Origin: Dillenia suffruticosa | Lineage: Eukaryota; Streptophyta; Magnoliopsida; Dilleniales; Dilleniaceae | Length of the DNA stretch: 64,000 nucleotides | Direction of reading: 5' to 3' | Assembly: GCA_033439265.1 (NCBI GenBank) | Contig: JAVTVX010000011.1 | Location: 11,718,590 to 11,782,589, forward strand | Shown here: piece by piece, positions 5,502 to 38,369 of the stretch | Numbering within the stretch: the first letter of the stretch is position 1 | How the letters are laid out: each line of letters starts with the position of its first letter | Notes under the pieces: generated by a model | The model's database searches: none | Seen by the model: only the letters and a program-made list of their open reading frames with translations | What the model was told of the DNA's origin: nothing | Program-made: the position numbers and the translations under genes

Positions 5502-6075
5502 CACTACAAAACAAGTGAGTTTTGTTGACAGACTAAAACCGTCTCCTAAATATACAAAAACCGTCGGCAAAACCTTCTCAAACGGATAGAGATTTAGTCG
5601 GTAATACACCAGTTGGGATAGGTGTATTCTGACACTTTTCATGACCGTTGGAGCATGTCATATATTTATAGTGACAGGTTAGAACTGTTGGTACATTTAG
5701 TATTTTATCATCGGTTTAAAATGTGTTGAGAAAACTTACTATTTTTATTATCGGTTGCCATATTAGTACCGATATCGATTATGTTACTACTAGACATATA
5801 TCATACCGTTTCGAAATGTTATTACTTCAGTTGTACAAATGTTAAGAAATATTGTGATTTATGGACGGTGTTAAGAAATATTAGTACTTTATTGTCACTA
5901 TAGTTACTACTATCATCACTTACTACTCACTTACTAGTTACTTAGTTATTGGTTACTACTATTATCACTTACCAGTTACTTACTTTCCGGTTACTACTAT
6001 AGTCACTTACTAGTCACTTACCAGTCACTTACCAGTCACTTACTAGTCACTATAGTCGGTTACTATACATATCTT
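5502..6075. repeat. Left terminal repeat and subterminal repeats of the large CACTA
   Basis: The terminal CACTACAAAA is followed by AAACCGTC / CCGTCGGCAAAA motifs that reappear inverted near the other end (38290-38350). At 5890-6060 there is an array of short units built on CACTTACCAGT and CACTTACTAGT. In En/Spm elements such subterminal arrays bind the TNPA-type protein; here the role is inferred from position. Confidence 0.8.
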
Positions 6076-6429
6076 CTTATGTGAGTAAATGTTATAAGTT
6101 TTGTGGATGGTTAGTACAAGTATAAGGAAATATAAGTAAAAACTTGAAAATAAAGAAAATAGTAAAATATTATAATATTGGAAAATGATTGATACAATTG
6201 GATAAAAAACAAAAAGATTACATATCCCACACCCACAATCCATATATCTTCTTCTGAGAGATGTTTCACCTCAATTATCAAAAGATTATCGGCAAAGTCC
6301 ACCTTCATTCAATCTATTCATTCATAAAAAGAAGTAGAGTCAGATGAATATAATATAATGGTATAAAAATGGTTATAAATAAAAATATTACTATGTTAAA
6401 AATAAAATAAAAATAAGTAGTAAAATAAA

Positions 6430-8158
6430 TATTACATTTTGGGACGGAGTCAGGCGGTGACGATGATTGCTGGTTTTTAAGTGCACTCCTAGCATCTGGT
6501 ATTGAAGGAAGCTAAAATACAAATAATTTAAATTATTTTTGAAATGTAAAAGTGAAATTAATAAGATAGTGCCGAAGTAGAAGTAGAAATAGAGAAATTA
6601 CATACCCGAACACCAGCAATAACCCTTGCTTCATTAACCATATTCATCAGTTCATCTTTATGTCCACTTCCAACATTCATAGCAACATGAAGAAGAACAT
6701 TACTTAACAAATTAGTAAGATTATGATTTTGTTCCATTAATTGTTGCATCATATTAGTAATATCTTCTTTGTCGGCTCTCGTTCAATGTATAAATGCACT
6801 TGTAACTTTTCCTACACATCTGATTTTACCCCGCGAATCAGGACCTTTAACCTTTGACACAATATCACTTTTCCAAGATAAATTTGAACTTTCTACTTGG
6901 CCTTTTTCTCTCTCGACAGACTCCATTTGACTTTACATCATTTCCTATAAAGTAAATAAATGAAACATGAATGTCCATAAATCAAGAACTATATAAAAAT
7001 AATCATCTATACCACAACTTTTGATGCTTTCGTAGAGACTAAACTACCATTCAATCGGGTTCTACTTGTAATATAAAGTTCTTCTCTACAAGGTTTCGTC
7101 CCACGTTGTGTTGTCTGTAATAATAAAATGTCATTCCAAGTATGTAAAATATTATGCAGTAAAATTAATTATAAGTAAAATAAAATATGAGTTGTTTATA
7201 CTTTCTCATCAATGAGTTTGGCAAATGACTTAGATCCTAAGCAATGTGGATCCGTTAACTTTGCACGACATTCTAAATTTCTTTTACTAATTTCCTAATA
7301 CAAAGTACTAGAATTAAATGTATTCAATTAATAGTAAGAGAAATTGTTTATTTTTTACGAGAGTACAAATGAATGAGTTAGAAAAATTATTTATTTTTTA
7401 CCTTCCCTTTATCACTTAGCCAAAAAATAACAAGATCCTTGTACTGATTTGGATCAATGCTTTCATCTTCCATTCTTTTGATATTTTCATCTACTCCAAG
7501 TGAATCATCAAACCACTTTGATTTGAGGCTATTTTTAAAACTCTTCCATTTCTCACACAAATTTCCAATAACCCATTTTTTGGTGTCTATCTCTGAGTGG
7601 TTTGAAAGTAATCTTGGACTACAATTCAAAATGAAAGAAATAAAATTAGATGGATTAATTTCTAATTTATGTGAATGTACAAAATTCAAAATGAAAGAAA
7701 TAAAATTAGATGGATTAATTTCCATTTATGTGAATGTACAATTTTGTAGATACCTCTATAATTTTCCACATATCTTCTTTATAGTCTGTTGGCATATCAC
7801 GCCAAGTCCTATAATTTATGGGAGCAATCGAGTGGACTCTGACTATAGAACCAAGAAATCTAGTAAAGATCATACCATCAATTCCTATCGGTTGATTTAA
7901 TTCATCCATTTCAACCACCATTCGTTTTCCTTTTTCTAAATCCCAAACATCTTGACAATGTGTTGGGTCTCTACATTTCTTCTTGAGAACTGCTAAAAAT
8001 ATATTAGAAATGGATACTTATCTCAATGATATGTTTTTAAACCAAACCAACTGAAACCTGGCGTAGCATCTTGGGCTTCTTCAGAGTGAAGTTGATCTTC
8101 AGATGGCTGTGATTCTTCATGATCAGCAACAATACTCATCCTTCGTTTAGTTCTTCCC
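6430..8158 (-). CDS. TNP1-like CACTA transposition protein (Transposase_24, En/Spm type)
   Basis: A spliced gene starting MGRTKRRMSIVADHEE at 8158. Likely exons are 8158 to about 8062, 7989-7754 (acceptor GCAG, donor GAG/GTATCT), 7618-7402 (acceptor TTGTAG, donor AAG/GTAAAA), one near 7297-7203, and further exons to about 6430. The central exons carry the family hallmark: W-x-GNLCEKWKSFKNSLK, then KSKWFDD, then DQYKDLVIFWLSDKGK-like residues (here PNQYKDLVIFW), followed by AKLTDPHCLGSKSFAKLIDE. A later part (6752-6605) is amphipathic, MMQQLMEQNHNLTNLL. This is the Transposase_24 (PF03004) region of plant CACTA elements, equivalent to the TnpA-type DNA-binding partner of the transposase. It lies downstream of TNP2 in the same orientation, as usual. 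The exact C-terminus is not clear. Completeness is uncertain but the core is well kept. Confidence 0.75.
7622..7739. repeat. Tandem duplication (~60 bp x 2) inside a TNP1 intron
   Basis: Two adjacent, nearly identical copies of a unit containing AAATGAAAGAAATAAAATTAG occupy the intron between the exons ending at 7754 and starting at 7618. The match is almost perfect, so the duplication is recent. It creates apparent open frames on both strands that repeat a peptide; these are not genes. Confidence 0.85.
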
Positions 8159-9480
8159 ATGTTGAGTTAAGGAAAGTTTGAAAAAAAATTTTGGTTAAGT
8201 CGAAAGATTTGAGAATTTGAAAAATGATTGTGGTTTTAAGTCACAAGATTTAAGATTTGAGGGAGGAGAGAGGTTTTGGAGGGAAAGAGAGTTTGTGGAG
8301 AATGATATATTATATATTTGATTTACGCGCTCAAATAAAATTTTAAAATCCGCTATTTTTTCCCGCTTTTTTCTAAGTTTAATTTTATCTTTTTATTATT
8401 ACATCATCAATAATTTCATTTTCTGTTGTGCCTTTGTTTTTGTTACAATGTTTTTGTTTTTGTTACTACATTCTTACCCTAAATATTACATTACAATAAA
8501 TAATAACCCTAAATTCATATCATTACCTTATTTAAATTAATAATATTAAATATATCATTATTCTACATAATTCATATTTAAAATTTTTGATATAATTATG
8601 TAAAAATTTTTATATAAAAAAAAGTATTGACATGGAATGTGTGGGCCGACACCGGCGCCCGGTCATGCCAGGACGGGCTCCCACCCACGCATGCCACAAG
8701 ACGGGCTCCCACCCACGGATGCCACTGCACCCATGCAACCTCCTGTGCGGTGCCTGGCAATGCCAAGGCGGGCGCCAGTGCATGCGCGCCATGCATGCAA
8801 GGGTGCATATTATTATTATTTATTACTTACTTATTACTTACTACTTACTTACTACCTAACTTATAAATTTTGGAAGAACAGATGGAGGGAAAGAACTTAT
8901 AAGTTTTGGAGGGAGGAAAAGAACTTATAAGTTTTGGAGGGAAAGATGGGAGGGAAAGATGGAAGGAAAGATGTTTGTGGAAAATGATTTATTATATATT
9001 TGATTTAGGACTCAAATAAATTTTTAGAACTTCTATTTTTTCCGTTTTTTGTAAAATTTATTTATTTTTATTATTACATCATCAACAATTTAATTTTCTG
9101 TATTGTTTGTAACATTTGTTCTTACCCTAAATTTTACATTTCAATAAATAATAACCCTAAATTTATATCATTATATTATTTAAATTAATAATATTAAATA
9201 TATCATTATTCTACATAATTTGAAAATTTTGATATAATCCATATATAAAAAATTTAATATAATAAAAAAAGCAGAGAGACATGGCATGTGTGGGCCAAGA
9301 CGGGTGCCTGGCCATGCCAGCACGGGCGCCCCCCACGTATGCCACCGTACACATGCAACTCTAGCGCAGACGCCAGGCAATGCCAGCGCGGGCGCCATCA
9401 CATGCAAGCTCCTGCCACATTATTTTTACTTACTACCTACTTATTACCTACTTACTACCTGCTTACTAAGTAACTTATAA
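8145..9480. repeat. ~640-bp tandem duplication upstream of TNP1, each copy with a GC-rich island
   Basis: The stretch about 8230-8865 and the stretch about 8866-9480 align along their length: a GGAGGGAAAGA purine tract, TTATATATTTGATTTA, ATTACATCATCAA, TTACCCTAAAT, then a GC-rich island (8636-8808 and 9280-9415), then TTACTTACTA-type simple repeats. This is the upstream flank of TNP1, so it may hold its promoter. A third copy lies at 34260-35085. Open frames across the GC islands run on several frames at once, follow base composition, and are not called. Confidence 0.75.
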
Positions 9481-9819: not shown

Positions 9820-12758
9820 ACTCTATCAACATCATCATCATCGTCATTTATCGCCATTGAATATTTCCTTCATCTTCGTCAACATTAGTTCGAACCCACA
9901 TCTGATTAGTTGAGGGACTAGTTTCTGAATTGAAATGATGAATTGTCAATTCATCACCCATATCAAATTCATCTCAAACTTTTACATGTTTTACAACAAG
10001 CCATCATTTATGTCTTTCATCAGCCACATAAAACACTTTCTTTGCTTGGAATGCCAAAACATAAGGATCATCCAGCAAATCAGTACCGGTATGATTGAGA
10101 TAGGAAAAATTGACAAGAGTTGAACCAAATCTGTTCTTTTTGCATCCTCGTTGTAGGTCGACCCAATCACACCGAAATAATACAAATCTATACATTCCAT
10201 TATAGTTTACTTGAATGATTTCTCTTAAGATGCCATAATAATTAACTTTACCTTCAATTGGCCTTTTATCCTTCGCACTTGCATAACTAATATCATCAAC
10301 TGCTACCACAACTCCTGAATTCTGAGTTTGAAGGTTATATTATTTAAATACAAATTTATATCATTATATTATTTAAATATCTGCGATAGACCCTTCAGGT
10401 TGTGCTCTATTACGTACATAGGATTTGAGTTGAAATAAATATCTGCATATATATACATATATTATATTAAATTAAATACATATATTGTATGAAATTTAAA
10501 TGTGTAGGTTAAATGAAATGAGCTAAATAAGTTAAAAATAAAACAAACCTTTCAACGGGATACATCCACCTATATGTGACTGGTCCACCAATTCTTGCTT
10601 CAGTTGTCAAGTGCGCCATCAAGTGTATCATGCTGGTAAAAAATGAGGGAGGGAAAATCTTTTCAAGCTCGTACATAATTTGTGGAACTGATGCCTCTAA
10701 TTGCTCAAGTTCTCGTGGGTCAAGCACTCTAGAGCAAAGACATTTAAAAATATTACAAATTTTGATGATAACAGAGGTAACATTCTCGGGGAGTGATCCG
10801 TGAATTGCTATAGGAATAAACTCTTGCAATAGAATATGACAGTCATAACTCTTTAGACCTATTAACTTCCACTGCTTCAATTGAATACATCTGAAAATAT
10901 TAGTAGAACACTCATCAGGAAGTTTTAACTCCTTTAGAACCTTAAGAAATGCATCTTTCTCCTGCAAGGTCATTTGGTAACATGCTTTAGGCAACAATAT
11001 GTTTGCAGAGTTTGATCTACGTATATGCAAATTCTTTCTTATTCCCATCTCCTCAAGATCAAGTCTGGCCTTATAATTGTCCTTAGACTTTCCTTCTTGG
11101 CCCAGAATTGTACCAGCAATTACATCAAAACAATTTTTTTCTGTGTGCATCATGTCAATGTTATGTCTAATTAAAACATTTTTCCAATAAGGTAAATGAA
11201 ACAATATGCTCTTTTTTTTCCATCCAGGCATGTCATTGGCACTTGTTAAATCAAAGCCATCTAATTCTCACAATACATCAGATCCGGATCGTTCTTTAGG
11301 AGCAACTTTGAATTCTTGTGTCCCATCAAAAGAATGTTTATCATACCTGAATGGATGAGTTGACTCTAACCATCTTCGATGTCCCATATAACAATACTTC
11401 TAGCCATGAGATAACCATTGAGAACATGTATCATATCCACATACTGGGCATACAAATCTACCTTTAGTACTCCACCCAGACAAATTAGCATATGCAGGAA
11501 AATCATTAATGGTCTATAAAAGTGCTGCATGCATTTTAAATGTTTCACGAACTGAACAATCATAAGCATCTACTCCTTCATTCCATAATTCTTTCAGTTC
11601 TTTCAACAATGGTTCCATGTACACATCTATCTTATCCCCAGGACTTCTAGGATCGGGAATAAGTAATGTGAGTATGAAGTCGGTAGATTTCATGTACAAC
11701 CAAGGAGGCAAATTATATGGTATCATGATCACTGGCCAAGTACTATGTGAAACATTCATGGTTTAAAAGGATTGAAACCATCTGCTACTAACCCTAATCG
11801 AATATTTCTTGGATCAGAAGAGAAGTTAGGGTATAGAGAATCAAACTCCTTCCATGCAATAGAATCTGCTGGGTGTCTTAAAAGTCCATCCTTTGTTCTC
11901 TTATCATGATGCCATCTCATCAAAGAAGCAGTTTCCCGACATGTAAATAGTCTTTGCAATCTAGGAATCAAAGGAAACTATCTCAATATTTTAGCAGCCT
12001 TTTTTTTTATTAATTTCTTGACATCCTTCATCTCCTTTATCTGTATTTGATTTCCATCTAGAAGTACCACACACATAACATGCTTCGTCTTTGGCTCTAT
12101 GTTTCCAGTATAACATACAATCATTAGGACAAGCATGTATTTTCTCATATGTCAACCCTAAAGATGAAATAGTTTTCTTTACTTCATGGCAACTATTTGG
12201 TAAGATGTTATCATCAGGCAATAATTCTCCCAAAAATACTAACAGTAATGAAAAAGATTTGTTGCTCCATCCAGACAAATACTTTAAATGATATAAATGC
12301 ATAATAGTTGTAAGTACAGAATATTTTGATTTTGGATATACCGGTTTTTTTGCATTCTGAAGTATTTCTTGAAATTTATCTGAAGTAAAATCATCCACCT
12401 TAGATGCACTGAATGCATCATGTAACATGCCAAAGATATCATGGTGAAAAAGATTATCACGTACGTTTCATACATTAGATGCATCAGATGTTGATTCTGT
12501 CCTTTTTCCATCACTCTCTCTGTTGTTCTCTCCATGATATATCCACTTATCATATCCACATTGAAACCCATAACGTAACAAAAGATTAAACACTGTATGT
12601 GTAGGAAATCTCAATGTGTTAAAACATTTTACACAAGGACATGATATCTTCCCATCCATGGATTGAATATTTTGATATGCAAATTCAAGAAATGTATTAA
12701 CTCCACTAATATATTCATCACTTCCTCTTGATTTAGAATATATCCATATCTTATCCAT
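9820..12758 (-). pseudogene. TNP2-like CACTA transposase, degenerate
   Basis: The start is MDKIWIYS at 12758. Domains in order on the minus strand are: transposase-associated N-terminal region with Cys-rich CPCVKC (12758-12470); Transposase family tnp2 core, with SWSNKSF-like, CYVCGTSRWK and GLVADGFNPF motifs (12430-11250); the conserved IDMMHTEKNCFDVIAGT block followed by the DUF4218 region with GPVTYRWMYPVER (11230-10551); donor AAAG/GTTTGT; a short exon near 10430-10384 (SYVRNRAQPEGSIA); and a DUF4216 exon (10309 to about 9900) containing VLFRCDWVD. It should catalyse cut-and-paste excision by a DDE-type reaction with TNP1 as partner. About six in-frame stops interrupt the core (near 12470, 11989, 11755, 11513, 11395 and 11265), many of them one transition from a sense codon, and the segment between the DUF4218 and DUF4216 parts is short. 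This copy cannot make a full transposase. Confidence 0.9.
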
Positions 12759-12959
12759 GAAAATAAAGATTTGCAAAAGCAAAGAGAAAGAGAGAAAGCA
12801 AAGAGAGAATAAATGAAGAGATTTGCAAAGCAAAGAAGAGTAAGGGAGAGAAAGAAATAAATGAAATACGGGAGAGAAATATGCTTAACCCAACAACATA
12901 AACACAGCATAACATAACATAGGAAAGAAAAGCAGCAGACTAGAAAAAAAAATAAATAA

Positions 12960-14768: not shown

Positions 14769-14789
14769 AAAAAAAAAAGGAAAAATTTG

Positions 14790-16407
14790 GAATTAAGGAA
14801 ATTGAACTTTGGGTCGAAATTTTTTTGCTCTACTCTGTTGAGAAGACGATGCAGTTCCACCCGTGGCAGTGGCAGTGGCAGAAGTAGTCGCAGCAGAAGA
14901 GGATGGTATTCCTTTTATCACTTCACCAATATCAAAAGGAATAAGATTAGATCTGGGAGGAGAAGCAAATGAAGCAAATGAAGTCCTTGGAGGACGAATG
15001 ACGAATGGGTAGGCGTGATAGGCAGAGCTCACAGCTGGTCTAGGTTCTGCGGTTCCGGAGGAAGATGTTCTGAGCTGCAAATGATCTCTTCTACATTTAA
15101 TAAAATTACTATTCACCCCTACATCGTCTCCATACTTATCAAGCAACCTATCATTCTCGCATGATCTTCCCGGTTCTGTTCCTTAAAATTATAATCATGC
15201 CGCTTAAATTCATCAAAATTATGCCTTAATTCACCAACTTCGTTTCAAATTTGTCCAATTTCATGCCGCTTAAATTCGTCAAAATTATGCCTTAATTCAC
15301 CCACTTCGTTTCGAATTTGTCCAATTTCTTTTCGTGATTCTCCTACTTCATTGCGAACCTCACCCACTTCACTGCGAACCTCACCCACTTCTCTACGAAC
15401 CTCGCCTACTTCACTCCGAACACTATCCAACTGTAATTTCATATGATTCATATATTCAAACAATTCTTCCCACCTCCTTTTCTCATTTTCATTTACATCA
15501 TTCAGATTTACATCATCATCATAAACTTCTTCCGCTTGTGGCTCTGGAACACCTCTTCTCTTTAAATTTAACCAAATTCCATCTTCACACACCCAATAAG
15601 CTCTCCGTAACGTTCTATCATTTATACTATTTTTAATCATATTTAATTGTAAATGATTTTCTTTTTGTAGATTTATTCCGTGACATTTTAAAATACCACT
15701 TACCATACTACAATATGATAAATTATTAGAAGAATCTCTTAAAGATATCATAAAATAAGGAACTAAAAAATGTAATCCCGGTTTTTTCCTTTCAACTATA
15801 CGCGTCATTAACCAAAAATCTTCTCAGGTAATAGATGTATAATTTTCCACACGTGGTTTAATAATGTGTATAATTAAAAAGTGAAGAATTCATTCTTGAA
15901 AATTTATATCAGTAGCATTTGTGCTAAAAAATTCTAAATTATCATCATTAAATACTATTTTAGCATCCATTATTATTTCAGTATTTAAATATGAAGCACA
16001 CTCTTCATACTCCACCCACGGAAGATTAGCCTCTCTGCATATCATCTTAGGAGTCACTTCAATTATTTCACCATCAAAATAACTTTGAAAACTACACGAA
16101 CTAATATTACCATCAATAATTACACAATCGTTATGGATTTTTTTCATATTATTTAAAATATTCTAACTGTATTCTCATATATATTTTTATCTGGATTAAG
16201 AATCGAAGATGGGCGCACTTCTTTTAAATAAGTTCCGTATTGAAAACTTATACTATCAAGAAAATTCCAATCAATTAATCGACCCGAAGTAATGTTGCGA
16301 TGACAAAATACCTTCTGAAATAGATTGTTTTTTTTCAGAGATGGAAAGTGTTTGCTTTCATCTAATTCTATCATAATTCTTTTTCCTTTTCTAGATGATG
16401 AGGCCAT
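14790..16407 (-). pseudogene. Putative plant-transposon-protein (Transposase_32-like) gene with heptad-repeat tail, cargo of the CACTA
   Basis: It starts MASSSRKGKRIMIELDESK at 16407. The first ~280 residues, spread over open stretches at 16407-16153, 16147-15890 and about 15830-15600, resemble the family annotated as 'putative plant transposon protein' (PF20167). Seen are a basic N-terminus, a long first helix region ending VRIF, the segment with SSCSFQSYFDGEIIEVTP, then KPGLHFLVPYFMISLRD. The following part (15540-15245) has a striking repeat of (E/S)EVGEVR-type seven-residue units, predicting a coiled coil. A Ser/Thr/Ala-rich stretch with a basic end (15146-14793) may be a C-terminal exon or the continuation. 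The function of this family is unknown. At least one frame break separates the first two open stretches. It is transcribed away from the Ulp1-like gene at 21074, with 4.7 kb between them. Confidence 0.55.
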
Positions 16408-16689
16408 TGTGTCGAGTTTGTGACTTTGGGAGAGACGCTAAAGATGGAGGAGAGGCAGTTTGAAGGAAAGGGTAGGAAGGAGCCGTGAAGGAAGCTTGCG
16501 GAGATGAGCCGAGAGAGGAGTTTGGACAGCAGTTTATTTGTGAGTAAAGAGTGAGTACCGAGAGGACAGGAGTTAGTTTATGAGTGAGTGGCGAGAGTGA
16601 GCGGTGAGAGGAAAGTGATGAGTAAGTTCTGAGTGAGTTTTGAGAGAAATGTTTAGTTAAGTAGTAGTATAACTGCACTGTTAGCTCGT

Positions 16690-21000: not shown

Positions 21001-22443
21001 CACGAGTCAAACTTGCTTTTTGCGCTTCCATAAAAACCCAAAAAACATACAAATCAAACCAAACTTGTTTCCTATGTCGAACAAGAAGGAAATTTTTTCT
21101 AAGAAGAAACTAAAATCTATTGCGGTGAGTTACTAGTTTATTTTACTCATACTCATTTTTTTTTTCATTTTCATTGAATAAATTATACTGAAAAATAGTT
21201 TTTTTAATAGAATGAAGAAGATGAAAAGACAGTAAAAGAGGAAATTTCTGGAATGAGAAAAGCAATGACTACTCCAATGCTGACAAGGTGTTCTCCTAAA
21301 CAAGTAAGAGAGCTATTTTCTACTCTTACAGACGATATGAAATGTGTAGTGAAAGAAATGGGATTCGGAAGCCTTTTGAACATGACCTGTGATATACTGA
21401 GTCGAAAATTGTGTGAGAAACTTATAATGAGATTTGAACCCATGCAAAAATATCTTTCTATCCCTCCCCATCACAATTTTAAACTCACAGTAGAAGAAGT
21501 AGCACGAATTTTAGGAATCCCTTACATGGGATGTGATGTGTTAGATTCTTCCTCCATTGAATCTTCAAATTTAAGAAAATATTTCTTGACATTAAAGTAT
21601 AGCCAATTAAAACAAGAGATCCAAATCTACTCACCCAACTTTAAACGATGTTTCTTGTTATTTATCCTTGGATGCTTTTTATGTCTAACTACGAATGTCT
21701 TCCCGGCTTCCAGACATCTTACTGCTACTATTGATGTTGAGAATGCTCGACAATATAATTGGGCTAAATTTGTATTAGAATGGTTAGTTGATGAGATTTC
21801 TGAATTCAAACGTCAAGCAAGAGAGGTAGAACACAGAAAGAAGACGGGCATCAGTGGTTGTTTATTTTTACTTATGGTAAGCTTTCAATTTAATGATTGA
21901 ATGGAATCTACTTTAACAATATTTAACAAATATTGTTTTATGTATAGATCTTTTATTTTGAGAATGTTAGAGTTGGTGACTTGGGGGGCAAAAAAACACA
22001 TTTACCCATTCGCTATTGGACGACGGATCGGGTAAATCAAAGACTTGAATCCGAGCGTATAAATGTATGTAAGTTAAAATAAGTTTATATGCATTATGTA
22101 AAAACTATAGAATCTCAATAGTATACTATTTATTTATAGGTTTATTCACCTTTTATACTATTTATTTTAATAGGGTTTATTGTCTAAAAAATCTGTTGAA
22201 AAATCTATTGAAGCAAGTGTTGAAGAAGCTGAAGAAGCAAGTGTTGGTGTTCATGGTGTTGAAGGAAGTAGAGAAAAAATTAAGGTAAACTTATAATCAC
22301 TACTTTATATACCACTCACAAGCACTTATATAGAGTACTTATACTATGTGCAATTGCAGAGAATCAATATCAAACATGAAATTAAAATGTTTGTGGAGAA
22401 GTCAATTCAAATTCATTCCAATTTGTTACAAATGCATCATGAT

Positions 22444-25177: not shown

Positions 25178-28100
25178 TTTTCTAACCCCCTAAAAATAAG
25201 TTTCGTCCTCGAAACTAAAAGAAGGCGAAGCAGCAAACAACTGGGGGTGCTGTCTCCTCATGGCTTCCTCAGGCTCCCAGGTCTGTTCCTCGACCTGGTC
25301 ACTCCTCCACAAAACTCTAACAAGAGGAACCTCTATGCTCCGTAGCTTTCTGACCTATCGATCCAAACTAGTCACGGGCTGAACAGGTAAACTCAAGTCC
25401 TCTCGAAGCTCAACTGGCGGAGCCTCTAAAATGTGTGAAGGATCTGGCTGATATTTCCTAAGTATTGAGACATGAAATATATCGTGAATGCACCATAAGT
25501 CTGCTGGCAGCTCCAATTTATATGCTACACTTCCGACCCTCTCAAGGATACGGAAGGGTCCAATATACCTGGGGCTCAACTTCCCTTGCTGCCCAAATCG
25601 AATGACTCCCTTCAAGGGAGATATCTTTAAGAATACCATGTCTCCCACAGTCAACTCTAGAGATCGCCGCCTACGATCTACATAGGATTTCTATCTATCT
25701 TGAGCGGCTTTCATCCGCGTACGGATAATCTTCACTTTCTCTTTCGTTTCCTCTACCAGCTCAACATTGGTGAGTCGTCGCTCACCAACCTCATCCTAGC
25801 ACAACGGGGTACGATACTTCCTGCCATAGAGTGCCTCATAGGGTGGCATGACGATGCTGGCCTGATAACTATTATTATACGCAAACTCTACCAGCGGTAA
25901 ATGCCTGTCCCAACTACCCCGAAAATCCATAACCCAAACCCGAAATAAACCCTCGAGCGTCTGAATGGTCCTCTCCGACCGACCATCTGTCTGTGGGTGA
26001 TATGCTGTACTAAAACTAAACCGCGTACCCAAAGCCTCTTGCATTCTGGTCTCAACATGCTTCTGCTGTGATTAAAGAGAAAATGTACGGACCGAGTAAA
26101 TTAATTAGCTATCACCCAAATGGCATCATACTGTGCCAAAGTCCGATGCAACTCTACTACGAAGTCTATCGTGACATACTCCCACTACCACTCAAGAATG
26201 GGGAAAAAAGAAAGGCTGTGAAGTACCAGCTAAACGCTGGTACTCGGCCTTTTACCTATTGGCGAGCTAAACATCTTGTCACAAAATCCTCAATTTCTCA
26301 TTTCATGTTAGGCCACCAATAACTATCCCGAATAGTCCAATACATCTTGGTACTACCTAGATAAATGCTTAAGTTGAGGAGTGTGCCTCCTTAAGTATGG
26401 CCTTGCGGAAATCAATGTCAACTGAAATACAAATCCGTTCTCCAAACACTATCTATCCGTTCTCTCGGAATCCGAAGTCTCTGACATGGTTGAACAAGGT
26501 CTACCTGTCCTCATATCTGGCTAATGATGCTTCTTACACATCATTAACCACACTGACTCCTAAGGTACGGAGTCCCACCAATAAAGAGGGGTAAGCACTC
26601 TCTCTGTCGTCTGAGAGTAAGACACTAAGCATGCTCTTCAACACTCTGCAAGCTGACTAGGATGTCATCAGTGGAAACGATAACAAATCGATCTAGGAAA
26701 TTCATAAAAGACCCGATCTATTCGGTCCATAAATGCAGCTAGGACATTGGTCAGCCCAAATGGCATGACCAAGGACTCAAAGTGTCCATTTTTTTTTTTT
26801 TTTGGGACAGATCCTCGACCCTAACCCGTAACCGAGTATAACGCAATCGAAGATTTATCTTCGAAAAGACCTTATCACCGAGAAGTTAATCAAACAAATC
26901 ATCGATGTGGGAAAATGAATATCAATCCTTGGTAGTGACCTTAGTCAACTGCCAATAATCCATAACAAGTTTAAGTGTTCTATATTTCTTCTTTGCAAAT
27001 AATACCGAAGCACCCTAAGGTGTGGTGCTTGGATGGATGAATTATTTATCTAACAATTTCTGTAGTTAAATCTTGAGCTCTCTCAGCTCAAATGGTACCA
27101 TTTTATATGGCAGAATAGAAATAAGAGTAATCCCTAGAGCTAGATCAATCTCAAAATTGAACTTCCGAATCAATGATAATTAGGGTGGCTCCTCGGGAAA
27201 TACTTCAGGAAACTTCTGTACCACCAGAATCTCATCAAGTCTCGGATTCTGTATGGTGGTATCGATCATATGTGTCAGATCTGTCATACATCCTCGACGG
27301 ATTATACGTCTGGCTTTCGTCACTAATACAATACCACGGGATAACACCCGTCTCTCACTCGCGAACGTCAGTGGTGGCCCTTCAGGCCTCCAAAAATCAT
27401 CTTTCTTGATAAAACAGTCTAAGGAAACTCTATAAGTATACAATTAATCTATCTCTAAGATGGCATCGAAATCTGTCATATCCAGTGGGATCAGATTTGT
27501 TCTCAGCACTGTCCCACCTGCCATGACATCATACTCTCTATATACGAATCTCTAACCAACTGCTCACCAAGAGTAGCGACAACTAATAGCTCCTCATCAA
27601 GTAACGATAACAGCCCATCTGACTGTTGAGCGAAAGAAACTCTCACATAGAAATAGTTCGACCCTGTACCAATAAGAACACAAACGTCGACTCCATGTAT
27701 TTCCATAGTACCAAGATTAAAATAAATAAATAAATAAATAAAATAAAATAAAATAAAATAAAATAAAATAAAAAGAATTTACTAAGAGTACGGAAAGAAT
27801 AGGGATATACACTTGTATATCAAAATAGTTAAGCCTCTAGTACTGTAACAATCATGTCTGTACATATCATCACAACATACACGATTTCAAAAGAAACAGT
27901 GCATAAGGACCTCTAAATAGAAGGATCCGCAGGAGGATTACCCATGATCACATCTGGGCTCGCAGAGCATCCTCCTGAGTCATCGCATACACAAGGGCCT
28001 ACACCCTCAACTACTCTCGTGAAAACCTAATACTATATTGCTCCCGGCTGCAGTTCGTGGAGCAGTGTTACTAGAATGCGCAGGTGTTCCCTGCTATCCT

Positions 28101-29310
28101 ACATGTGGTGTATTCCGATGACTCGAAGCCAACTAACCTCCAAGTCACAAATCAGGCCATAAACTCCTGATATGTCCCGGCTTCTCACAGTGGAAGCATG
28201 TAATAAGTGCTCTGCATATTTATTCGAGCGTGGTGCTTGCCACATACGGCAAAGAAAAGGTCGCTGAGCAGTAGCCTAGCTCATGGCACTAGGACTGGTG
28301 ATATAACCACCGGGGATATGGTCCCGCTAAAACTCCATGAAATATCTGCGGTCGAATTCCATTAGGAAATCGCTTTGCCGCAATGGCTTATAGCCTCATC
28401 GCAAATAGCCTCCCATCAAGTGAGGGCTTCCCTATCGAACAGTCTCTCAGTTACTCGTAGACTATACTCCTCGCGCAAGCCTAGATCAATCAAGATCCGT
28501 CGGATTCAGTTGACTCAGTGCTTTGCTACCGTAGCATCACCAAGTCCAAAAATCTGTGCATCCCAACTGTCGAGCTATCGTGACTAGCTGGGTCATCTTG
28601 GAGATGCACTTAAGTATGGCGCAATTATTATAACTCAGATTCGAAACTGTAAGAAGAACGGCCACTGATGGACGATTTGGTGCCGCTTGAGTAAGAACTA
28701 CTGTAGGAGGAATAAGCGCAGCCGTAGATATCAGCATTGCCATCAAAGGTGATGGGGTGACATCTGAACCCCATGTGCCGTGTACCACTCGTACACTTGC
28801 CAAAAAATATCAAGAGTAAATGGTGGAGACGTTGGTATAATAGCCAGCTGAAAAGGTGCCAGAGAAAACACACACCTCGAGGATGTATTCTTCGGCACCG
28901 AAAGGGGCGCCAGAAATGAGGAAGTATCCTCGCTCTCTTTAAGTGAATCAGGGAGTACATATCTAGCGCTCCATGTAATCGTCATGGTTCCGCAATATAA
29001 GAATTCTCATTAGGCATTGTTCAAGGATTAGGGTTAATACAACTAACCCCCGAAAATGAATGAAATCATCAATTTAAGAACCATCTCCATTGGTTCCTTC
29101 TTTGAAAATGAAGAAATGCTAGGTTAGATAAGAATTAGTATCTAACCCCCTAAAATAGATAAACTCAATTCCTAAGACCATATGCAGGGATACAAATGAC
29201 TGTATGAAACTCTCATGCATTGAGGACTTTAAATGCAAACACACTTGAGAATGTTTTCAAGATTTTCTTCCTATATAGCGCTCAACCTAGAGCTCTAATA
29301 CCAATCCAAC
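25178..29310 (-). mobile_element. Internal region of the inner gypsy element (fossil gag-pol)
   Basis: Read on the minus strand from 29310: gag remnants (28985-28300), protease zone (27706-27180), reverse transcriptase and RNase H remnants (27180-26050), integrase with the HPQTDGRSERTIQTLE block (26044-25796) and its C-terminal region with GPFRILERVG (25654-25355). The order is that of Ty3/gypsy. The coding region is broken in many places and shorter than in a whole element. Confidence 0.88.
27721..27772. repeat. AAATA/AAATAA microsatellite
   Basis: A run of AAATAAAT followed by AAATA units within the inner gypsy internal region. Confidence 0.85.
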
Positions 29311-32031
29311 TGTCACGCCCCAAACCTGGAGCGTGAGCAGCCGCCCGTTACCCTGGATGCCGGCTGTATTTTTACAGAAAATCGGGCAGAACCTCCCCAT
29401 ATATCGGAGGTCTCCCATATTAAAATAAACCTGTTACCTGTCCATAAGGGGCCATCCCGGCCTCAAAATACATAAATTATCCTCAACAACAAACCAGATC
29501 ATCCATACTGCGCAATCCAGGGCAACGCAAGGCTAACAAACAATTCTCCACAGTCCTAACCACAGACCTCTACTGCCATGCCCCCATCAAAGGCATGGAC
29601 AGCCGCCAGTCGCCCCTCCTGTGATTTAGAGGAGGCACCGAGCGATCCTAGAGGACACTTCTAAGACATGATACATTCCCAAATATAGACGCAACAAAAA
29701 AAAAATGCCTCAATGCAATATCATGCAGTGACATGAGAGTTCTACAATTTAAATGTCCATATTTATACAGTCATCCCAAAATTATAAAAATGGTCATCTA
29801 TAGACCTCAAAATACATATACATCACCAATACAAATTTGCAGCGGAAATACACAATGACTTCTCAAGTCCAGGCCTGATCTCCCAAAGATACTGAGCGTC
29901 CTAAAAGCGACGCTCCTTGTCAAATACTATCTCTGCAACAAAAGGGAAATGAGGGTTGAGTATTCGGGAAAGAATACTCAGTGAGTGAGTGGGTCAATGC
30001 AATCGTCAAATATAGAGTGTGAAACTGGAGTGTCAAAACATAAGTATATAAATCATATTTCAAATCATCATGCTTTTCATTTCAACAATATATCATTTCA
30101 CGCATTTTCAAGTCAAATATGCATCCAAAGTACCATCATTTAAAATCATAGAGCTGCCAGCCGAAAATGTCCTGGCAGAGGTCTACCGCGACCTATGACA
30201 GGCGCACCGGGGGTGTTATATGCAAATTTCTTTAGAGTGCTCTCTACCCCGGCGTTGGCGACGAACCTCGTCCAGGTGCTAGACTTGGAGAGGATATCCA
30301 ATCCAAATCCAAATCCTCCCCCTTTCGGGTTCAAGTTGACAAGTACCGTGTCGATAATCAAATCACGACAACTCGTGGGATACCCCAGGCCTAGGCATAT
30401 CCGGACGCCACCAAAGCGTCTCTCACGGTATCCTTCGTAGCTACGGAACAATACAATCCAAAGCCCTCAAGGCCAAAATCAATATCATATCAAAATGTGC
30501 CAAAGTCAGGTTCATAAACCGATGCAACATAGAGTATAAAATGACACATTATACATTTCAACCACATGGATGCATAATTTCATAATTCAACACAGTTTTT
30601 GAACACTCCATCGGTTCATAAAAAATTAATTTTAAAACCAGTCAAAACATTTCAAGTATACGACAAATCATACTCATTACCAAAATATTATAAAACAGGA
30701 TTTACATATTAAACAAAAGTATTGAAATAAATTTCACTAACAGTTTTGGGGAGGATAGCGCACTCCCCAATAAAACCATAATACGTAGAGCAATGCTCCC
30801 CTCAATCGAATCACCAAAATAGCCAACCTAATCAAATCATCACGGTTCGATATCAAATAAGGGTCTAGTTATGAATTTTCAATTTTTCTTTCCAACCAAA
30901 ACTACCTAATTTGACAAATTTTATTCAAAAGTTAAAGAGATTTCCTTTCTCTCACCTAGGATTCCTCAGATCTCGGATCTAGCTTTCGTTCGCCCGTCGA
31001 TTTGATCTAAAACCTGAATGTTTCCAAATTTGAAACAATTGTGAACAATTTAAGTCCAATTACTAAAGAATTTCGAAACCCTAGTGCGGAAATCGAAACT
31101 TTGAGTCATTTACCTTCGCAGAGGCTCACGAACTGTCATGGGCCGTCGCGGGCTCGTGGGCCGCGAGTTGGCGGGCTGATGGGCTGGCGGGCCTGGTGGG
31201 CCTGCGGGCCTGATGGGCCTGGTGGGCCATGGGCCGGACTGGGCCGCAGTGGCTAGGGCTCGCGCTCACGAGCTGGATCGAGTGCTCGCGCAGTGGGTCA
31301 CGTGCTGGAGCACTCGCTCTCGTGCTGGGGCGTGCTGGAGGGCGTGCTGGCACAGGGGAGCCCTGGGCCACGCTGGGGCGCGCAGGGGCTCGTGCAGAGG
31401 CGCGCAAGGGCGCGCTGGTGCTCGAGCAGGAGCGTGCAGAGGCGCGCAGGGGGTAGCGCTCTGCTCGCGCTGGGCTCGGGAGCTGCTCGTGCTGGGCTCG
31501 CGCGCTGCTCGTGCTGGGCTCGCGCGGGGCTCGCGCGCAGCTCGCGCTGGGCTCGCGCGCTGCTCGCGCTGGACTTGCGCGCAGGCTGGGTTCGTGCGCT
31601 GGCACGCGTTCGGCTCGAGCTGGGCTCGCGCTGGGCTCGAGCTGGTCTCGCGCTGGGCTTGCGCAGTACACGCTCGCGCTCGGGAGTGCGTGCAGTCGCA
31701 CGAAGGAGAGTGCGCAGTCGCGCGAAGGAGAGCACTGTGGCGTTCGTGCAGGAAGGAGCTGCAACGGCTCGCTTGCGGGAGGGAGGAAGGCGCTGCGGCT
31801 AGCGCGCTCACGTGGGGAGGAAGGAACAGCGGCGGCTAGGTGCGGTGCCGAGCGGCGGTGCTGGCGGCGGCAGCGCTGGCGGCAGCAGGAGAGAAAGAGA
31901 CGGAGTGAGAGAGAGAGAGAGAGGGAAAGAGAGAGAGGGAGAGAGAGAGGGGAGAAAATTAGGGCTTTAAGCCCTAATTTTAATTTTCCCTTTTTTTTAT
32001 TATTATTATTTTTTATTATTTGGGTATTACA
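29311..32031 (-). repeat. 5' LTR of the inner gypsy element (right copy)
   Basis: Nearly identical to 22444-25177, 13 bp shorter overall because of small indels in the GC-rich array and the GA and T runs. In element orientation it starts TGTAATACCC with an AT-rich segment and a pyrimidine-rich CTCTCTCT leader-like stretch, plausible for U3/R promoter and leader, although no start site can be fixed by reading. Confidence 0.93.
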
Positions 32032-33940
32032 ATGATATGTTGTGCAGACTTTGTGAGTATGTAGAAGATGAAGAAGAGAACGAAGAACAAAAGAAGGGAA
32101 AAAAGCAAAAGAAATGCAAAGTTAAGGCTAGTGATTTTAGTGATGACCACGAGGAGGAGGAGGAGGAGGATGATAAAGCCCGGCAGGGGCAAGAGGAGGG
32201 GGACGAGGACAAAGCCCGGCAAGAGAAAGGGAATGGGCAGGACGAGTGTCTGGAGAAGGAGGAGAGTTCGGATGAGAAAGGATGGGAGGAGGCTCTTGAC
32301 GAGGAGAAGGATAAAGATACTGAATATGAATATGAAGTAATAAATATCTTAACTGAAATGAAAGATGGAAAGACAAACCAAATATCTTTCTTGCCCTTTG
32401 TTAAGGTTAGGTCTTTTTCTGATGAGGAGGAAAGTGTTTGGGGTTTTTTATGGTCGAAAAGCCATAAAAAATAATGTCAGGTAAATGTCTTACAACCTTT
32501 GTCTTTGTTATTTTGGATTCCAATTTTTAGAGATATTTGACTGAATCTAATTTTTCAATTTTTAGAGCTTTTTGATAGAATCTAATTTTTATGACAATTT
32601 ATAGAACAATTTTGTGTAATATTCGTGGAAGTTACATGTGCTGGACGGATGCCTATGGGCTGTTACCGCCTTACTAGATTGACACGTTGGTATGAATTAT
32701 GAATTCTTTGTATTTATTTTTCATATTACATTACTAATTATTAATTACTAATTATTAATTATCTTTGCAGACGATGGATTGTTATATATGCTTCCTCAAT
32801 ACCATCTTCAATCCAAACTTATTCTCAAAGTCATTATCAAAATGCGTTTTACCATTATGGTTTTCGGTATAAACTTTCATCTTTCCTCAACTTCTTAACT
32901 CCTGTATGAACTTATCATATCATTCTTTTCTCTTTGTTCTCAAATATCATTCTTTGATAATGTTTTTTCATCTACTTATTATACTTATTTTATATTTAGT
33001 TGTCTGTGGTTGCATCTATGGAAAGCAAGCCTAAAAGAAAGTGGGATATTTCTATAGTTGATAATTCTTTGTCTCAGAAAGCATTTGGATTTAACTTCCA
33101 ATTATATAACCTAGTGAGTTATTTTACATTATATATTTATCTTTTGATTTTATCTCTGTTATTTTATTTTATCCTATGGCCTATGATTAGTATACTCTTA
33201 CTAACACGTTTTTATCCCTGTAATATTCAAACAACATTGGTTTTGTTACGCCCTTTATGTGGATAAGCAGACTATCTGTCTTTTAGACTCAGGGTATCAT
33301 TTCAGAGGCCATGAACATGATGAGTTGGAAATTTTGATGATAATTAATTATTTAACATATATAAATATCAAATTTTTTTCAAATTATCAACTATTATATA
33401 TTTATTGATTTCCCTGTACTTCTCTTCGTTCTCCAGAAAGATTGTCTTGAGAAGATTTATGAAAATTCTTTCATTATCTCGAAAACTGTTCATGTTGAAA
33501 TTCCACAACAACCTAATACGTAAATAACTTGTAATTTAAATTAATTTTACTTATAATTTAAATTAATTAATTATTGTAAGTTATTCTGTAATATAATTTA
33601 ATGTATATTTTTATATGTATGGGAATGATTGTGGAATATCTGTTATGAGATTTTTGGAGATATGGGAACCAGGATTATTTATAACCCACCAACTCAAGAA
33701 GTATGTTATATTCTGCATTTCTTATCTTATCTATATATTATATTTGTGTTGTATTATTTTTTGAGAAATATTGATAGTTTTATTTCATCTTCCTTTATTT
33801 TTCAGGATCTTAATTTTTTGAGAAAAGAATATTTTCTCAAACTTCTAATGTCCGAACATAATACAGTGCGTGATGATATTATGATGAAGATGAAGATGGA
33901 CGAAACAAAAAGGAAAAAGTTTCAGAGAAAACCAAAGTAG

Positions 33941-34259: not shown

Positions 34260-35085
34260 CACTCTCAAACAATACTCATCACGTTTAGTTCTTCCCATAT
34301 TGAGCTAAGAAAATTTGGAATGAGATTTTGATTAATTCACAAGGTTTGAGTTTTGAGTTTTGAGTGAGGAGAGCTTATTAAGGAATGAGAGGTTTTGAAG
34401 GGAAAGAGGATTTGTAGGAAATAATTTATAATATATTTGGTTTTGAAGGAAAAGAGGATTTGTGAGTAATAATTTATAATATATTTCAAATAAATTTTTA
34501 GAAGTCTGTTATTTTTTCCCGCTTTTCTATCCTCTTTTTTACCTTTTCTATCCTCTTTTTTACCTTTTGTGAGTTTAATTTTATTGTACATTTCCGCTTT
34601 TTTTTATTATTAAATCTTCAATTTTATTTTGTATTTTTTGTATTTGAATATTTTATATTTTTGTTTTTGTTACAACATTGTTACTATTGTATTACAATAT
34701 TGTTACTGCATTACATTACAATAAATAAATACCCAAAATTTTATATCATTACATTATTTAAATTAATAATATTATTTATATCATTATTCTACTTATATTT
34801 GAAATTTTTTATATAGTTTAATTTTTATTGAAATTTTTTATATAATAAATAAAATAGTGGCATGCGGCGTGCATGTGCGCGCATGCAAGCGCCGGGCGCC
34901 CGCACATGCCACACGGTGTTATCACGCATGCAGTGCCCGTGGGCACCTGGCCATGCCAACGCGGGCACCGGTGCATGCCACCACATAGGCAAGCGCAGTG
35001 CTACCTCACATGCAAGCGCCCATGCGGGCAATCGGCCATGCTAGCGCGGGCGCCCGAGCATGCCTGCGCAAGCAAGGGCGCGTGC
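34260..35085. repeat. Displaced copy of the TNP1 upstream region with GC island
   Basis: TCACGTTTAGTTCTTCCCAT at about 34279 matches the start-codon region of TNP1 (8138-8160). The following purine tract, ATTATTTAAATTAATAATATTA and TATCATTATTCTAC match 8230-8640 in the same order. It ends in a GC-rich island (34858-35085, GCATGCAAGCGCCGGGCGCC style). The TNP1 exons themselves are absent beyond the first few codons. Confidence 0.75.
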
Positions 35086-35259
35086 ATATTTTAGATTTTA
35101 TCTTTTACTAATTTTTTTTATTATTACATATTTATTTTATTATATATTACATTAGTTCTTCATTATTAATTCATTATTACTATTTTAATACTGCCTATAT
35201 CAATACACATACCATACATTATTGGTACATTATTACTACCTATAAATTTTCAAAAACTT

Positions 35260-35600
35260 TTTCTTTCCCGCGCCAATATTTTGAAAATTTTGAACCCTAA
35301 CAATTGTAAAAAAAGAAAAAAAGAGAAATCGTGCCAAAACTAAATTTTCTCTCGAAACAAAAAATTTATTTGGCGGTACATTGAAATTGAATATTTGCAC
35401 ATGTAAATTCAAGAAATACTCCAATATATTCATCACTTCTTCCTTAGAATTAGAATGCATCCATAATTTGTCCATCGTATTAAATACAAATCGTGCATAA
35501 TTTTGCATTGCAATAAATAGACGGAGTAATAAAAAAAATAAATAAAAGAAATAAATATGAAAATATTTTTGACGTGTTATTAAATTGGCGCTAAGAAACA
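35260..35600 (-). pseudogene. Fragment of a TNP2 first exon and its upstream region
   Basis: The minus-strand sequence MDKLWMHSNSKEE...ILEYFLNLHVQIF (about 35478-35385) matches the TNP2 start MDKIWIYSKSRGS...FLEFAYQNIQS at 12758-12660. The flanking ATATTTTTGACGTGT and GGCGC bases resemble 12975-13010. Only the N-terminal ~30 residues are kept. With 34260-35085 it looks like the remains of a second, internally deleted copy of the transposase region. Confidence 0.7.
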
Positions 35601-35837
35601 AATAGGAAAAAAAGAAATTTGATTAAATTAGTATTAAAATAGAAAATTATTTTTGCCATGAAAATTTTTTTTTGGAGTTATCATTAAATTAAATAGGTAA
35701 ATCTTGTAAATTAAGTGGGTTTAGGGTTTTAGTTTTTTTTAATTTATATAAAATAATATAATATTGATAATTATATAAATTACTAATTTAATATTATTAC
35801 ATTATTTAAATTAATAAATTCATTTTATTATATTTTT

Positions 35838-36305
35838 CACGGGAGCCAGGGTGCCCGCCCATGACACTGCGCAGCCAGGCACGGGCCTTGCATGGAAGCA
35901 TAGGCGCGCACAGGAACGGGATGGCGCCTGTGCATGCACTCACGGGCGCCAGCCCATGCCACTGCTCAGGCAGGGCGCCAGCACAAGCACACACGGGCGC
36001 CCGCCCTTCATGGAAGCATAGGCGCGCACAGGAGCAGGAAGGCGCCTGCGCATTCATGCACGGGCGCCAGCCCATGCCACTGCTCAGGCAGGCGCGCGCC
36101 AGCCCATGCCACCACTCAGGCAGGCACGCGCCCGGGCGGGCGCCAGCACATGCACACACGTGCACCTGGGCTTCATGGAAGTATAGGCACGCACAGGAGC
36201 AGGAGGGTGCCCGCACATTCATGCACGGGCGCCAGCCCATGCCACTGATCAGGCAGGCGCGCCCGGGCGAACGCCAGTACATGCACACACGGGCGCCCGC
36301 CCTTC
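35838..36305. repeat. GC-rich island with ~70-100-bp repeats
   Basis: Repeats of GGCGCCAGCCCATGCCACTG and CTTCATGGAAG(C/T)ATAGGC(G/A)CGCACAGGA recur three times or more. Overlapping open frames on both strands come from the repeat and are not genes. It lies about 2 kb from the right CACTA end and directly beside a tRNA-like sequence (36342-36410). Confidence 0.75.
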
Positions 36306-36341
36306 ATTTATTCTTTATGAAAAAATCATCTTTTTTTATCA

Positions 36342-36410
36342 AAAGGTGGGATTCGAACCTCGGACCTTGATTTGAAGGGAAGACATGTTAACCACTGTGC
36401 CATGAAGTCT
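36342..36410 (-). other. tRNA-like sequence (SINE head-like), with box A and box B
   Basis: On the minus strand TGGCACAGTGGTTAAC (36402-36387) resembles an internal polymerase III box A, and GGTTCGAATCCC (36359-36348) is a near-perfect box B, about 30 bp apart. A full cloverleaf cannot be drawn by eye, so it is better taken as a tRNA-derived remnant than as a tRNA gene. It is followed by TTTTTTCATAAAGAA and the GC island, an arrangement also seen at 49144-49314. Confidence 0.6.
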
Positions 36411-36419
36411 TGTGTGATA

Positions 36420-37370
36420 ATTTTTTTTTTCTTTCTTTCTTCCTCCTCAATATCATTTTTTTCTATTCTGCGTTTTTTTTTCCTGTTTGAAATTTCTTAT
36501 ATATTCAAACCAATATATTTTAATAATAATTATATTGAATGATATGAATGAATTATGATTAATTAATATTATATATTTTGAACGATAAATATTTTGTGAT
36601 TAAATATATAGATTTTTTAAATTATTAATATATTATAATTTAAACTAATATTGATAATTATAATTTTATATTATGACATTAAGATGCACTCATCCACTTA
36701 TTCATCTAACATAAGGATTTGTCGTCTAAATTGGTATCGATATTATTATGTTATTAAAAAATTCTAAATTTTTTGTAAAATTTTTATACTAGCAATTGAG
36801 GAAAGTAGGATATATCACCAATTAAATGGTTACAATAATATTTTTCAAAACATATACTGCCATTTTTACAAACAAATTTTCAAAACTCATTTTTCAGCGT
36901 AGTTTTTCATTATATAATTTTTCTTTTTTTTCATTATACACTTGTTATATTTCATTTCCATGAATATCATCATTATTATTATAAATTTATTATAAATTTA
37001 TAGTATATCACTACACTCGCATACACTTGTTATAAGTTTACTATTAAAGAAAAGAAATGATGTTTTTTGATTTTTAATTTTCAAACTATTAAATCATAAA
37101 TCTTTTCAAAAATTCTACTATATATTTTAAAATTTAAAAAATGTATATAAGTTAATATTAAATTAATATAAATAATTAAAATATTTTATAAAATTATTTA
37201 ATGTATATAAGTAATGTATGTTAATAAATATTAAATAAATACGTATTAATAAAAATTAGAAATAAATATAATGATGGTGGATTCCACACCTCCAATGATG
37301 GATTACAACTAATAACATGATTGATAAAACTTATCTTATCTTTACTTTTACGGTGGTAATTGTACGTGCA
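36420..37370. other. AT-rich spacer
   Basis: Very AT-rich, with short runs and no coding signal, repeat array or RNA that I can support. Confidence 0.5.
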
Positions 37371-38369
37371 GACTATATATTATAAACTTATCACTGTACA
37401 AAGTTTTGCCTACTTACCATCTACTTAGCACGACTATATCACAAATTTATCATTAACTTATCACTATATAAATTTACTTATCCACTTATCATCTATTTAT
37501 CATCTATTTATCATCTACTTACCACGACTATATATCACAAACTTATCACTAATTTACCACTATATAAACTTACTCACTTACCATCTACTTACCACTAACT
37601 TATCACTATATAAACTTACTTATCCACTTATCATCTACCTGCCATCTACTTACCACAACTATATATCACAAACTTATCACTAACTTATCACTAATTTACC
37701 GCTATATAAACTTATTTACTCACTTACTATCTACTTACCACTTACTTACCACTAAGTTACCACTATATAAACTTATTTATTCACTTACTTTCTACTTACC
37801 ATCTACTTATCATGACTATATATCACTAACTTATCACTATATAAACTTACTTACCCACTTATTATCTACTTACCTACCTACTGTTACTTATCATTATCAC
37901 CTATTTACTAAACTACCACTCTCATAAATAATACAATATATACGTCAGTATAAATAGAATTTATACAAATGGTTTGTTCTAATAGCGAGAATTGAATATA
38001 GTTTTAAAAGACGGTAGAATTTGTGTGTTACTACACATCTAAAACCTATGAAAACCTATGAAGACGGTATTGTTAAGTAGATAATAACAAAGATTTATAT
38101 TGAGACTATTTTTAAACCGTGGTAAAAAGACTATTATATTTACTGACCATAATTTTTAATCATCATAATTGAATACTGCTTTACGGACGGTTGTGAGATA
38201 GTTTTGTCGACGGTTGATAAACTTTTCTTCACGCACATTTTAGTCAGTTGGGAAAACTTATATTTTCCGATGGTTTTATGACAAGGTGTCTCTATAAATC
38301 ATAAAAACCGTCACTAAAAGTTGCCGTCGTTAAAAATTGCCGTCGGTACAGCACTTTAATTTTGTAGTG
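37371..38369. repeat. Right subterminal repeat array and terminal repeat of the large CACTA
   Basis: From 37390 to 37915 there is a degenerate tandem array of ~60-90-bp units built from AACTTATCACTATATAAACTT and ATCTACTTACCAC. ACTTACCA occurs about eight times, all on the plus strand, as in the left array. From 38200 to 38350 there are GACGGTTG / GCCGTCGGT motifs mirroring the left end. The last bases are ATTTTGTAGTG. Confidence 0.8.

Follow-up and report, generated by a model that had tools for sequence, protein, structure and literature searches.

When a plant DNA transposon carries genes beyond those that move it, do those genes belong to the transposon lineage or were they picked up by chance? 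Such additions are commonly classed as captured fragments. A CACTA element in a 64,000-nucleotide stretch of the Dillenia suffruticosa genome (hereafter the window: positions 11,718,590 to 11,782,589 of contig JAVTVX010000011.1, here C11) raises the question, as besides the transposase genes TNP1 and TNP2 it holds a gene for a coiled-coil protein and one for a Ulp1-like protease. An earlier note on the window had read this set as the stable four-gene complement of a CACTA lineage and not as a one-off capture. After searching the 596-Mb genome for further copies, we consider it probable (roughly 0.85) that the element represents a CACTA (En/Spm) lineage whose usual content is TNP1, TNP2, a Transposase_32-like coiled-coil gene and a gene combining a plant-mobile-domain (PMD)-like part with a Ulp1-type protease, and that the extra genes have been kept by selection. 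The parts of the element on which this reading turns are as follows.

5499-5501: left target-site duplication (TSD), TGG, directly outside the left CACTA end
5502-5511, plus strand: left terminal inverted repeat CACTACAAAA, by pattern match in the window
6558-8166, minus strand: TNP1 gene, TnpA-like, with a weak Transposase_24 match, read in pieces
9848-12884, minus strand: TNP2 transposase gene (Transpos_assoc, Transposase_21, DUF4218, DUF4216)
14793-16437, minus strand: coiled-coil gene, related to Transposase_32 (PF20167), with an interrupted frame in the window
21211-22300, plus strand: N-terminal part of the Ulp1 gene, PMD-like, with a weak DUF1985 match
32032-33764, plus strand: continuation of the Ulp1 gene, an acidic stretch (to about 32471) followed by Peptidase_C48 pieces
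38360-38369, minus strand: right terminal inverted repeat, inverted CACTACAAAA
38370-38372: right TSD, TGG, directly outside the right CACTA end

CACTA-type inverted ends, a 3-bp TSD, a Transposase_21 domain and subterminal repeats at both ends place the element in the CACTA (En/Spm) superfamily, and a Peptidase_C48/Ulp1 domain inside the CACTA ends makes it a CACTA-ULP element of the Cactavine type. Both transposase genes and the two further genes are present, with the Ulp1-like gene (plus strand) divergent to the other three (minus strand), as the note had described, but the window copy is broken: its TNP2, coiled-coil and Ulp1 genes are damaged. In CACTA elements generally, cutting and pasting of the ends is the task of TNP2, and subterminal motifs are bound by a TnpA-like TNP1; the two proteins would move this element in the same manner.

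Across the genome, the genes travel with the ends. A DNA search was made with seven features (both ends, TNP1, TNP2, the coiled-coil gene and the N- and C-terminal parts of the Ulp1 gene). For each feature the 40 top-ranking places were used, window copy included, giving 280 places in all; second pieces of the same loci were left out (38 of 78 matches for TNP2, 7 of 47 for the coiled-coil gene, 7 of 47 for the Ulp1 C-part and 1 of 41 for TNP1). Identity over the best 40 places was 91-100% for the 5′ end (91-95% besides the window), 88-100% for the 3′ end (88-95% besides the window), 90-100% for TNP1, 82-100% for TNP2, 84-100% for the coiled-coil gene, 94-100% for the Ulp1 N-part and 89-100% for the Ulp1 C-part. 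These places fell into 96 clusters (gap under 25 kb), 26 with a single feature and 70 with at least two, and the order and orientation of the window were kept in all 70 multi-feature clusters. Pairs in opposite orientation within 25 kb numbered zero, where about 3.3 pairs of any kind are expected by chance; an earlier clustering (four features, 40-kb gap) had likewise put 48 of 48 multi-feature clusters in order. Another listed feature lay near 33 of the 40 five-prime ends (window included), and both ends were present at 21 loci among the listed places, again with the window. Besides the window, 13 of the 20 two-ended loci held, between their ends, the coiled-coil gene together with part of the Ulp1 gene. 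The 3-bp duplication was perfect at 16 of the 20 and one base off at 2; the ends of the last 2 were damaged, and some relatives carry point changes in their terminal repeats. Ten of the 13 loci with both ends and both extra genes had a perfect duplication, at ten distinct sites.

Some listed copies recur at regular spacing. Four two-ended copies on contig C16 (10789k, 11242k, 11695k and 12173k) have the same bases beside both ends and lie ~450 kb apart, and a fifth 5′ end (10349k) falls into the same spacing; they are probably one insertion in a large repeated segment, or an assembly artefact, and as the four loci, all among the 16 with a perfect duplication, share one flank they count as one insertion. 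On contig C15, five 3′ ends of equal identity between 16614154 and 17275223 are spaced by ~110 kb or 220 kb, which suggests a tandem array of ~110-kb units.

Two relatives were read closely, one on contig C9 in full and one on contig C29 in full but for about 0.9 kb; for other relatives the analysis drew on stretches of 3-4 kb at the 5′ end or the Ulp1 N-part (30 loci for each) and on 25 bp at each of 20 three-prime ends. Starting at 10735885, the C9 copy measures 24.8 kb and lies between two copies of AAT; blocks that together span most of it, with all four genes among them, can be aligned to the window. The C29 copy (5004111-5023252) has a length of about 19.1 kb and TAT on either side, and it represents a sister subfamily, its TNP2 DNA being 83% alike to that of the window. 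All four genes have open exons in this sister: TNP2 has frames of 309 and 504 codons, the coiled-coil gene is a single frame of 604 codons, and the Ulp1 gene consists of a 243-codon frame and protease pieces in which the order His, Asp, Cys is kept. Over their aligned parts, both extra genes are 66-75% identical in DNA between the window's subfamily and the sister. That copies with matching ends would share all four genes and their order was thus borne out in the clusters of listed places, in the complete C9 copy and in the C29 copy, nearly complete as read.

The extra genes also carry a signature of constraint. We computed the ratio of nonsynonymous to synonymous substitution rates (dN/dS) by the Nei-Gojobori method for C9 or the window against C29, with 95% ranges from 200 codon bootstraps. 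The ratio for the coiled-coil protein was 0.28 (0.19-0.40) over its N-terminal 300 residues and again 0.28 over its full length; it was 0.21 (0.13-0.30) for the Ulp1 N-part, and 0.33 (0.22-0.49) and 0.11 (0.06-0.19) for two exon parts of TNP2. Wrong reading frames, used as a control, gave 0.96-5.03. The Yang-Nielsen method, which yielded values for 4 of 7 pairs, gave 0.16-0.19 for three between-subfamily pairs, and within the subfamily, between the window and C9, the ratio for the Ulp1 N-part was 0.36-0.40. Because the between-subfamily ratios are 0.2-0.3 and their ranges end below 0.5, they indicate that both extra genes were under purifying selection while the subfamilies parted.

The products of the four genes can be described from profile matches. 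For TNP2, Transposase_21 was matched with E 5.2e-89 on the joined pieces of the window and E 1.2e-88 on a single frame of the C9 relative; the window pieces also matched Transpos_assoc (4.6e-21), DUF4218 (7.4e-26) and DUF4216 (1.1e-17), yet they contain several stops and lack ~0.63 kb that relatives have. The Transposase_24 matches in TNP1 (E 0.022 in the window, 8.8e-5 in a relative) are both under the Pfam cut-off. The 39 best other copies of the gene in the genome are at 90-97% identity, and it is conserved in the C29 sister, where three pieces show 66-89% amino-acid identity. The coiled-coil gene is split into three broken frames in the window, as opposed to one open frame of 602 and 604 codons in the two relatives, and it is the relatives' proteins that match Transposase_32 (E 1.8e-9 and 1.5e-8; 38.2 and 35.2 bits), over profile positions 7-176 of 177; the window copy gave no match at E 0.1. 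Neither relative's protein reaches the PF20167 cut-off of 45 bits, and by its profile matches the coiled-coil protein is related to Transposase_32 without being a formal member. A search of the genome with the Transposase_32 profile returned 150 scored matches, of which 11 lie beside listed TNP2 loci, all 11 on the expected strand, and 3 of these 11 adjoin TNP2 loci of the sister class (7 loci of the 82-83% class). The Ulp1 gene of the window is split by an inner gypsy retroelement (22444-32031). Its protease pieces have His, Asp and Cys in the expected order, a catalytic reading made by eye, and Peptidase_C48 was matched with E 3.1e-4 on the joined window pieces, just over the cut-off, and with 1.1e-7 on the joined pieces of the sister.

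Several observations weigh against so orderly a picture. Seven of the 40 five-prime ends stand alone in the lists, with no further feature inside 25 kb, and at 7 of the 20 other two-ended loci one or both of the extra genes are missing from the best-40 lists. One two-ended copy (C24:11824k), with a span of 19.0 kb, is ~5-6 kb shorter in the interval from its 5′ end to the Ulp1 gene, and neither a coiled-coil nor a TNP2 match is listed for it. The unscored candidates of a first look were also fewer for the extra genes (464 for the coiled-coil gene, 477 and 631 for the Ulp1 parts) than for the 5′ end (1072), TNP1 (1008) and TNP2 (1261), from which copies without the extra genes may be common. 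As each list holds the best 40 places, a missing feature is no proof of absence, and such gaps may be real or a matter of rank. In a strict test that required two exact motifs, a frame of at least 215 codons was kept in 9 of 30 Ulp1 N-part loci, the window's included, and the N-part of the C9 copy contains one stop, so that many copies are in decay. The protease reading was assembled from its pieces by eye and not from transcript data, and the selection result comes from one pair of subfamilies. Against these points stand the stable gene order, the presence of both extra genes in the sister and the low dN/dS, which together argue that they are genes of the lineage and not one-off cargo. The stable four-gene lineage proposed earlier is therefore supported by order, by both relatives and by selection, although the set is not perfectly fixed, and 'cargo', the note's own word, is the wrong label for genes that a lineage keeps. 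Copies with these ends and without the extra genes had been named as what would speak against a stable set; we judge that this objection does not apply, since the genes travel with the ends.

Further features inside the element bear on its history.

5537-5565, plus strand: subterminal AACCGTC motifs of the left end, putative TNP1 binding sites
22444-32031: inner gypsy retroelement inside the Ulp1 gene, with long terminal repeats (LTRs) at about 22444-25166 and 29311-32031
22439-22443 and 32032-32036: 5-bp duplication of the inner gypsy, ATGAT
34268-35475, minus strand: decayed remnant that duplicates the TNP1 upstream region (34268-34978) and TNP2 exon 1 (35386-35475)
37410-37882: minisatellite near the right end
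38010-38312: subterminal AACCGTC-type motifs of the right end

The alternative that survives best, although we consider it quite unlikely, is a hybrid origin, in which two neighbouring CACTA elements fused and took in the intervening DNA, a model put forward for Pack-CACTA (PMC13317346). In its favour, the decayed TNP1 upstream region and TNP2 exon 1 near the right end, seen in C9 too, lie beyond the Ulp1 gene in the order and sense of the main gene set. This remnant was not found in the C29 sister, which has both extra genes, and it therefore looks younger than the gene set; for that reason a fusion origin was dropped as the leading explanation. Very unlikely, in our estimate, is a one-off capture in which the coiled-coil and Ulp1 genes are fragments of the host or of other transposons, picked up by one copy and merely amplified. 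CACTA elements and Mutator-like elements (MULEs) often carry captured fragments (PMC2528002), and Transposase_32 matches also occur away from the listed TNP2 genes, the 11 adjoining ones being a minority of the 150; but an accidental passenger fits poorly with two genes that keep their open frames and their constraint in a 19.1-kb sister already diverged to 66-75% DNA identity, and with the order kept in all 70 clusters. Least likely of all is that the Ulp1 gene arrived in a MULE or other element inserted into the CACTA. MULEs with Ulp1 genes have been described in several plants (PMC2528002, PMC13317346), but no CACTA-type pair of ends surrounds the Ulp1 or the coiled-coil gene (MULE ends were not searched), whereas separate ends around these genes would, by the note, have refuted its reading, and the layout with both ends and both extra genes recurs at the ten distinct sites with a perfect 3-bp duplication.

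The borders of the window copy are exact to the base, as first described: CACTACAAAA ends at 5502 and 38369, with TGG on both sides. The CACTACAAAA pattern has three matches in the window, compared with a mean of 0.21 in shuffled sequences, and none of 100 shuffles reached three. The third match (minus strand, 117-126) abuts the start of the left LTR of an outer retroelement and may be the end of another CACTA-like element. The CACTA end CACTACAAGAAA is not the end of this family. When the flanks were joined minus one TGG, they gave an open frame, IRPRTKVVQSRQRSYTDKRRKHLEFEIGNMVFLNISP, resembling the C terminus of a gypsy integrase and followed by a stop, in agreement with the claim that an interrupted integrase resumes after the TGG; the likeness was judged by eye against the integrase of the inner gypsy and not by a profile scan. 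The inner integrase C terminus (25355-25687) matches SH3_Tf2-1 with E 2.1e-26. The interrupted outer retroelement has direct repeats, taken as its LTRs, at 124-1508 and 39643-41024 that are 86% alike, and from these and the open joined frame it follows that the CACTA landed in an older retroelement. The LTRs of the inner gypsy are 94.6% alike, younger than the outer retroelement, and the C9 relative has no inner gypsy, its site being intact. As each element nests in the former and the LTR identities are ordered accordingly, the sequence of insertions reads as outer gypsy, then CACTA, then inner gypsy. Minus the inner gypsy, the CACTA measures about 23,275 bp (~23.3 kb). Elsewhere in the window, direct repeats at 41174-42204 and 50183-51254, 87.5% alike, are probably the LTRs of a further retroelement.

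The AACCGT/ACGGTT sites are concentrated near the ends: 6 of 6 in the window lie within about 260 bp of an end, as do, in the fetched parts, 5 of 8 within about 180 bp in C9 and 8 of 10 within about 360 bp in C29. GC-rich minisatellites of the CGGGCGCCAG type, sharing one motif, occupy spacers of the C9 copy at about 3.4-4.5, 9.5-9.7 and 22.3-23.0 kb from its 5′ end; repeats of this type are present in the window copy too; the fetched parts of the C29 sister showed none.

What might the extra genes do for the element? VANC proteins counter the silencing of their own VANDAL elements (PMC5735166, PMC13317346) and contain DUF1985 (PMC5735166), and PMD proteins act in silencing in Arabidopsis; the same paper speculates that MULEs which captured such proteins use them against silencing (PMC5418596). 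By analogy, the two extra proteins could protect the element from being silenced by the host, much as VANC proteins serve VANDAL elements: the Ulp1 part would strip SUMO or a similar modifier from proteins of chromatin or of transposition, and chromatin targeting would fall to the PMD-like part. We favour such a role for the extra genes, though as a tentative possibility. Several observations count against it: the best PMD match (2e-7) is below the Pfam cut-off, as is the DUF1985 match (E 0.017-0.034), so that the gene does not qualify as a VANC-type DUF1985 gene; PMD was not matched at E 1 by the first Ulp1 exon piece of C9 on its own; a PDB search with the protease pieces of the sister came back empty at E 0.1; and a single-sequence structure prediction of the Ulp1 N-part had a predicted local distance difference test score (pLDDT) of 35.6, with no usable model. 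Rather unlikely is the further idea that the lineage built its own anti-silencing module from the PMD-like plus Ulp1 protein and the Transposase_32 protein, with the CGGGCGCCAG-type minisatellites as fast-changing targets; if true, VANDAL and this CACTA, from different DNA transposon superfamilies, would have reached the same counter-defence.

How does the element compare with known systems? A ULP domain occurs in five grapevine CACTA families, Cactavine-2, -3, -4, -5 and -13 (Benjak 2008, PMC2528002), and Cactavine-5 resembles the present element in its 21-25 kb and 3-bp duplication. The grapevine ULP is, however, described as transduplicated, and the accessible part of that account mentions no Transposase_32 gene, PMD-like part or selection test. 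Jozin elements of Chenopodium share TAD, Transposase_21, DUF4218 and DUF4216, some with Transposase_24 and Peptidase_C48; unlike the element here, complete ones measure 8.3-10.1 kb, their C48 is a short stretch in open reading frame 2 that varies between elements, and no occurrence of Transposase_32 was found in the accessible part of the account (PMC8978399). Tgmt* of soybean is likewise a large CACTA (20.5 kb) with a 3-bp duplication and TNP1/TNP2 functions, but has one large gene with both functions and, in the part of the paper available, no mention of a Ulp1 gene (PMC2613891). The accessible part of a lettuce CACTA paper mentions tnpA and tnpD alone (PMC8195511). VANDAL elements with VANC or KIU are also DNA transposons with an extra DUF1985 or Ulp1 gene (PMC5735166, PMC13317346), but they are Mutator-like with a different transposase, the DUF1985 match here is weak, and the anti-silencing effect reported for VANC would extend to our element by analogy. 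In sunflower, an additional frame of the mobile element Athila 14 encodes a protein that partly matches Transposase_32, but Athila 14 is an LTR retrotransposon and not a DNA transposon (PMC11728184). Ulp1/C48 in CACTA elements is thus already in print, whereas the open-access literature searched yielded no CACTA with a Transposase_32 gene, and the accessible parts of the compared grapevine and Chenopodium accounts contain no selection test on such extra genes (PMC2528002, PMC8978399).

The present family places a Transposase_32-like protein, from a Pfam family rarely mentioned in the literature searched, in a DNA transposon, besides the Athila retrotransposon (PMC11728184). Its two extra genes stay in the same order across many copies and in a subfamily that has diverged, under constraint in the range of the transposase parts. 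They offer a testable case that CACTA elements, like VANDAL, may carry accessory genes of their own.

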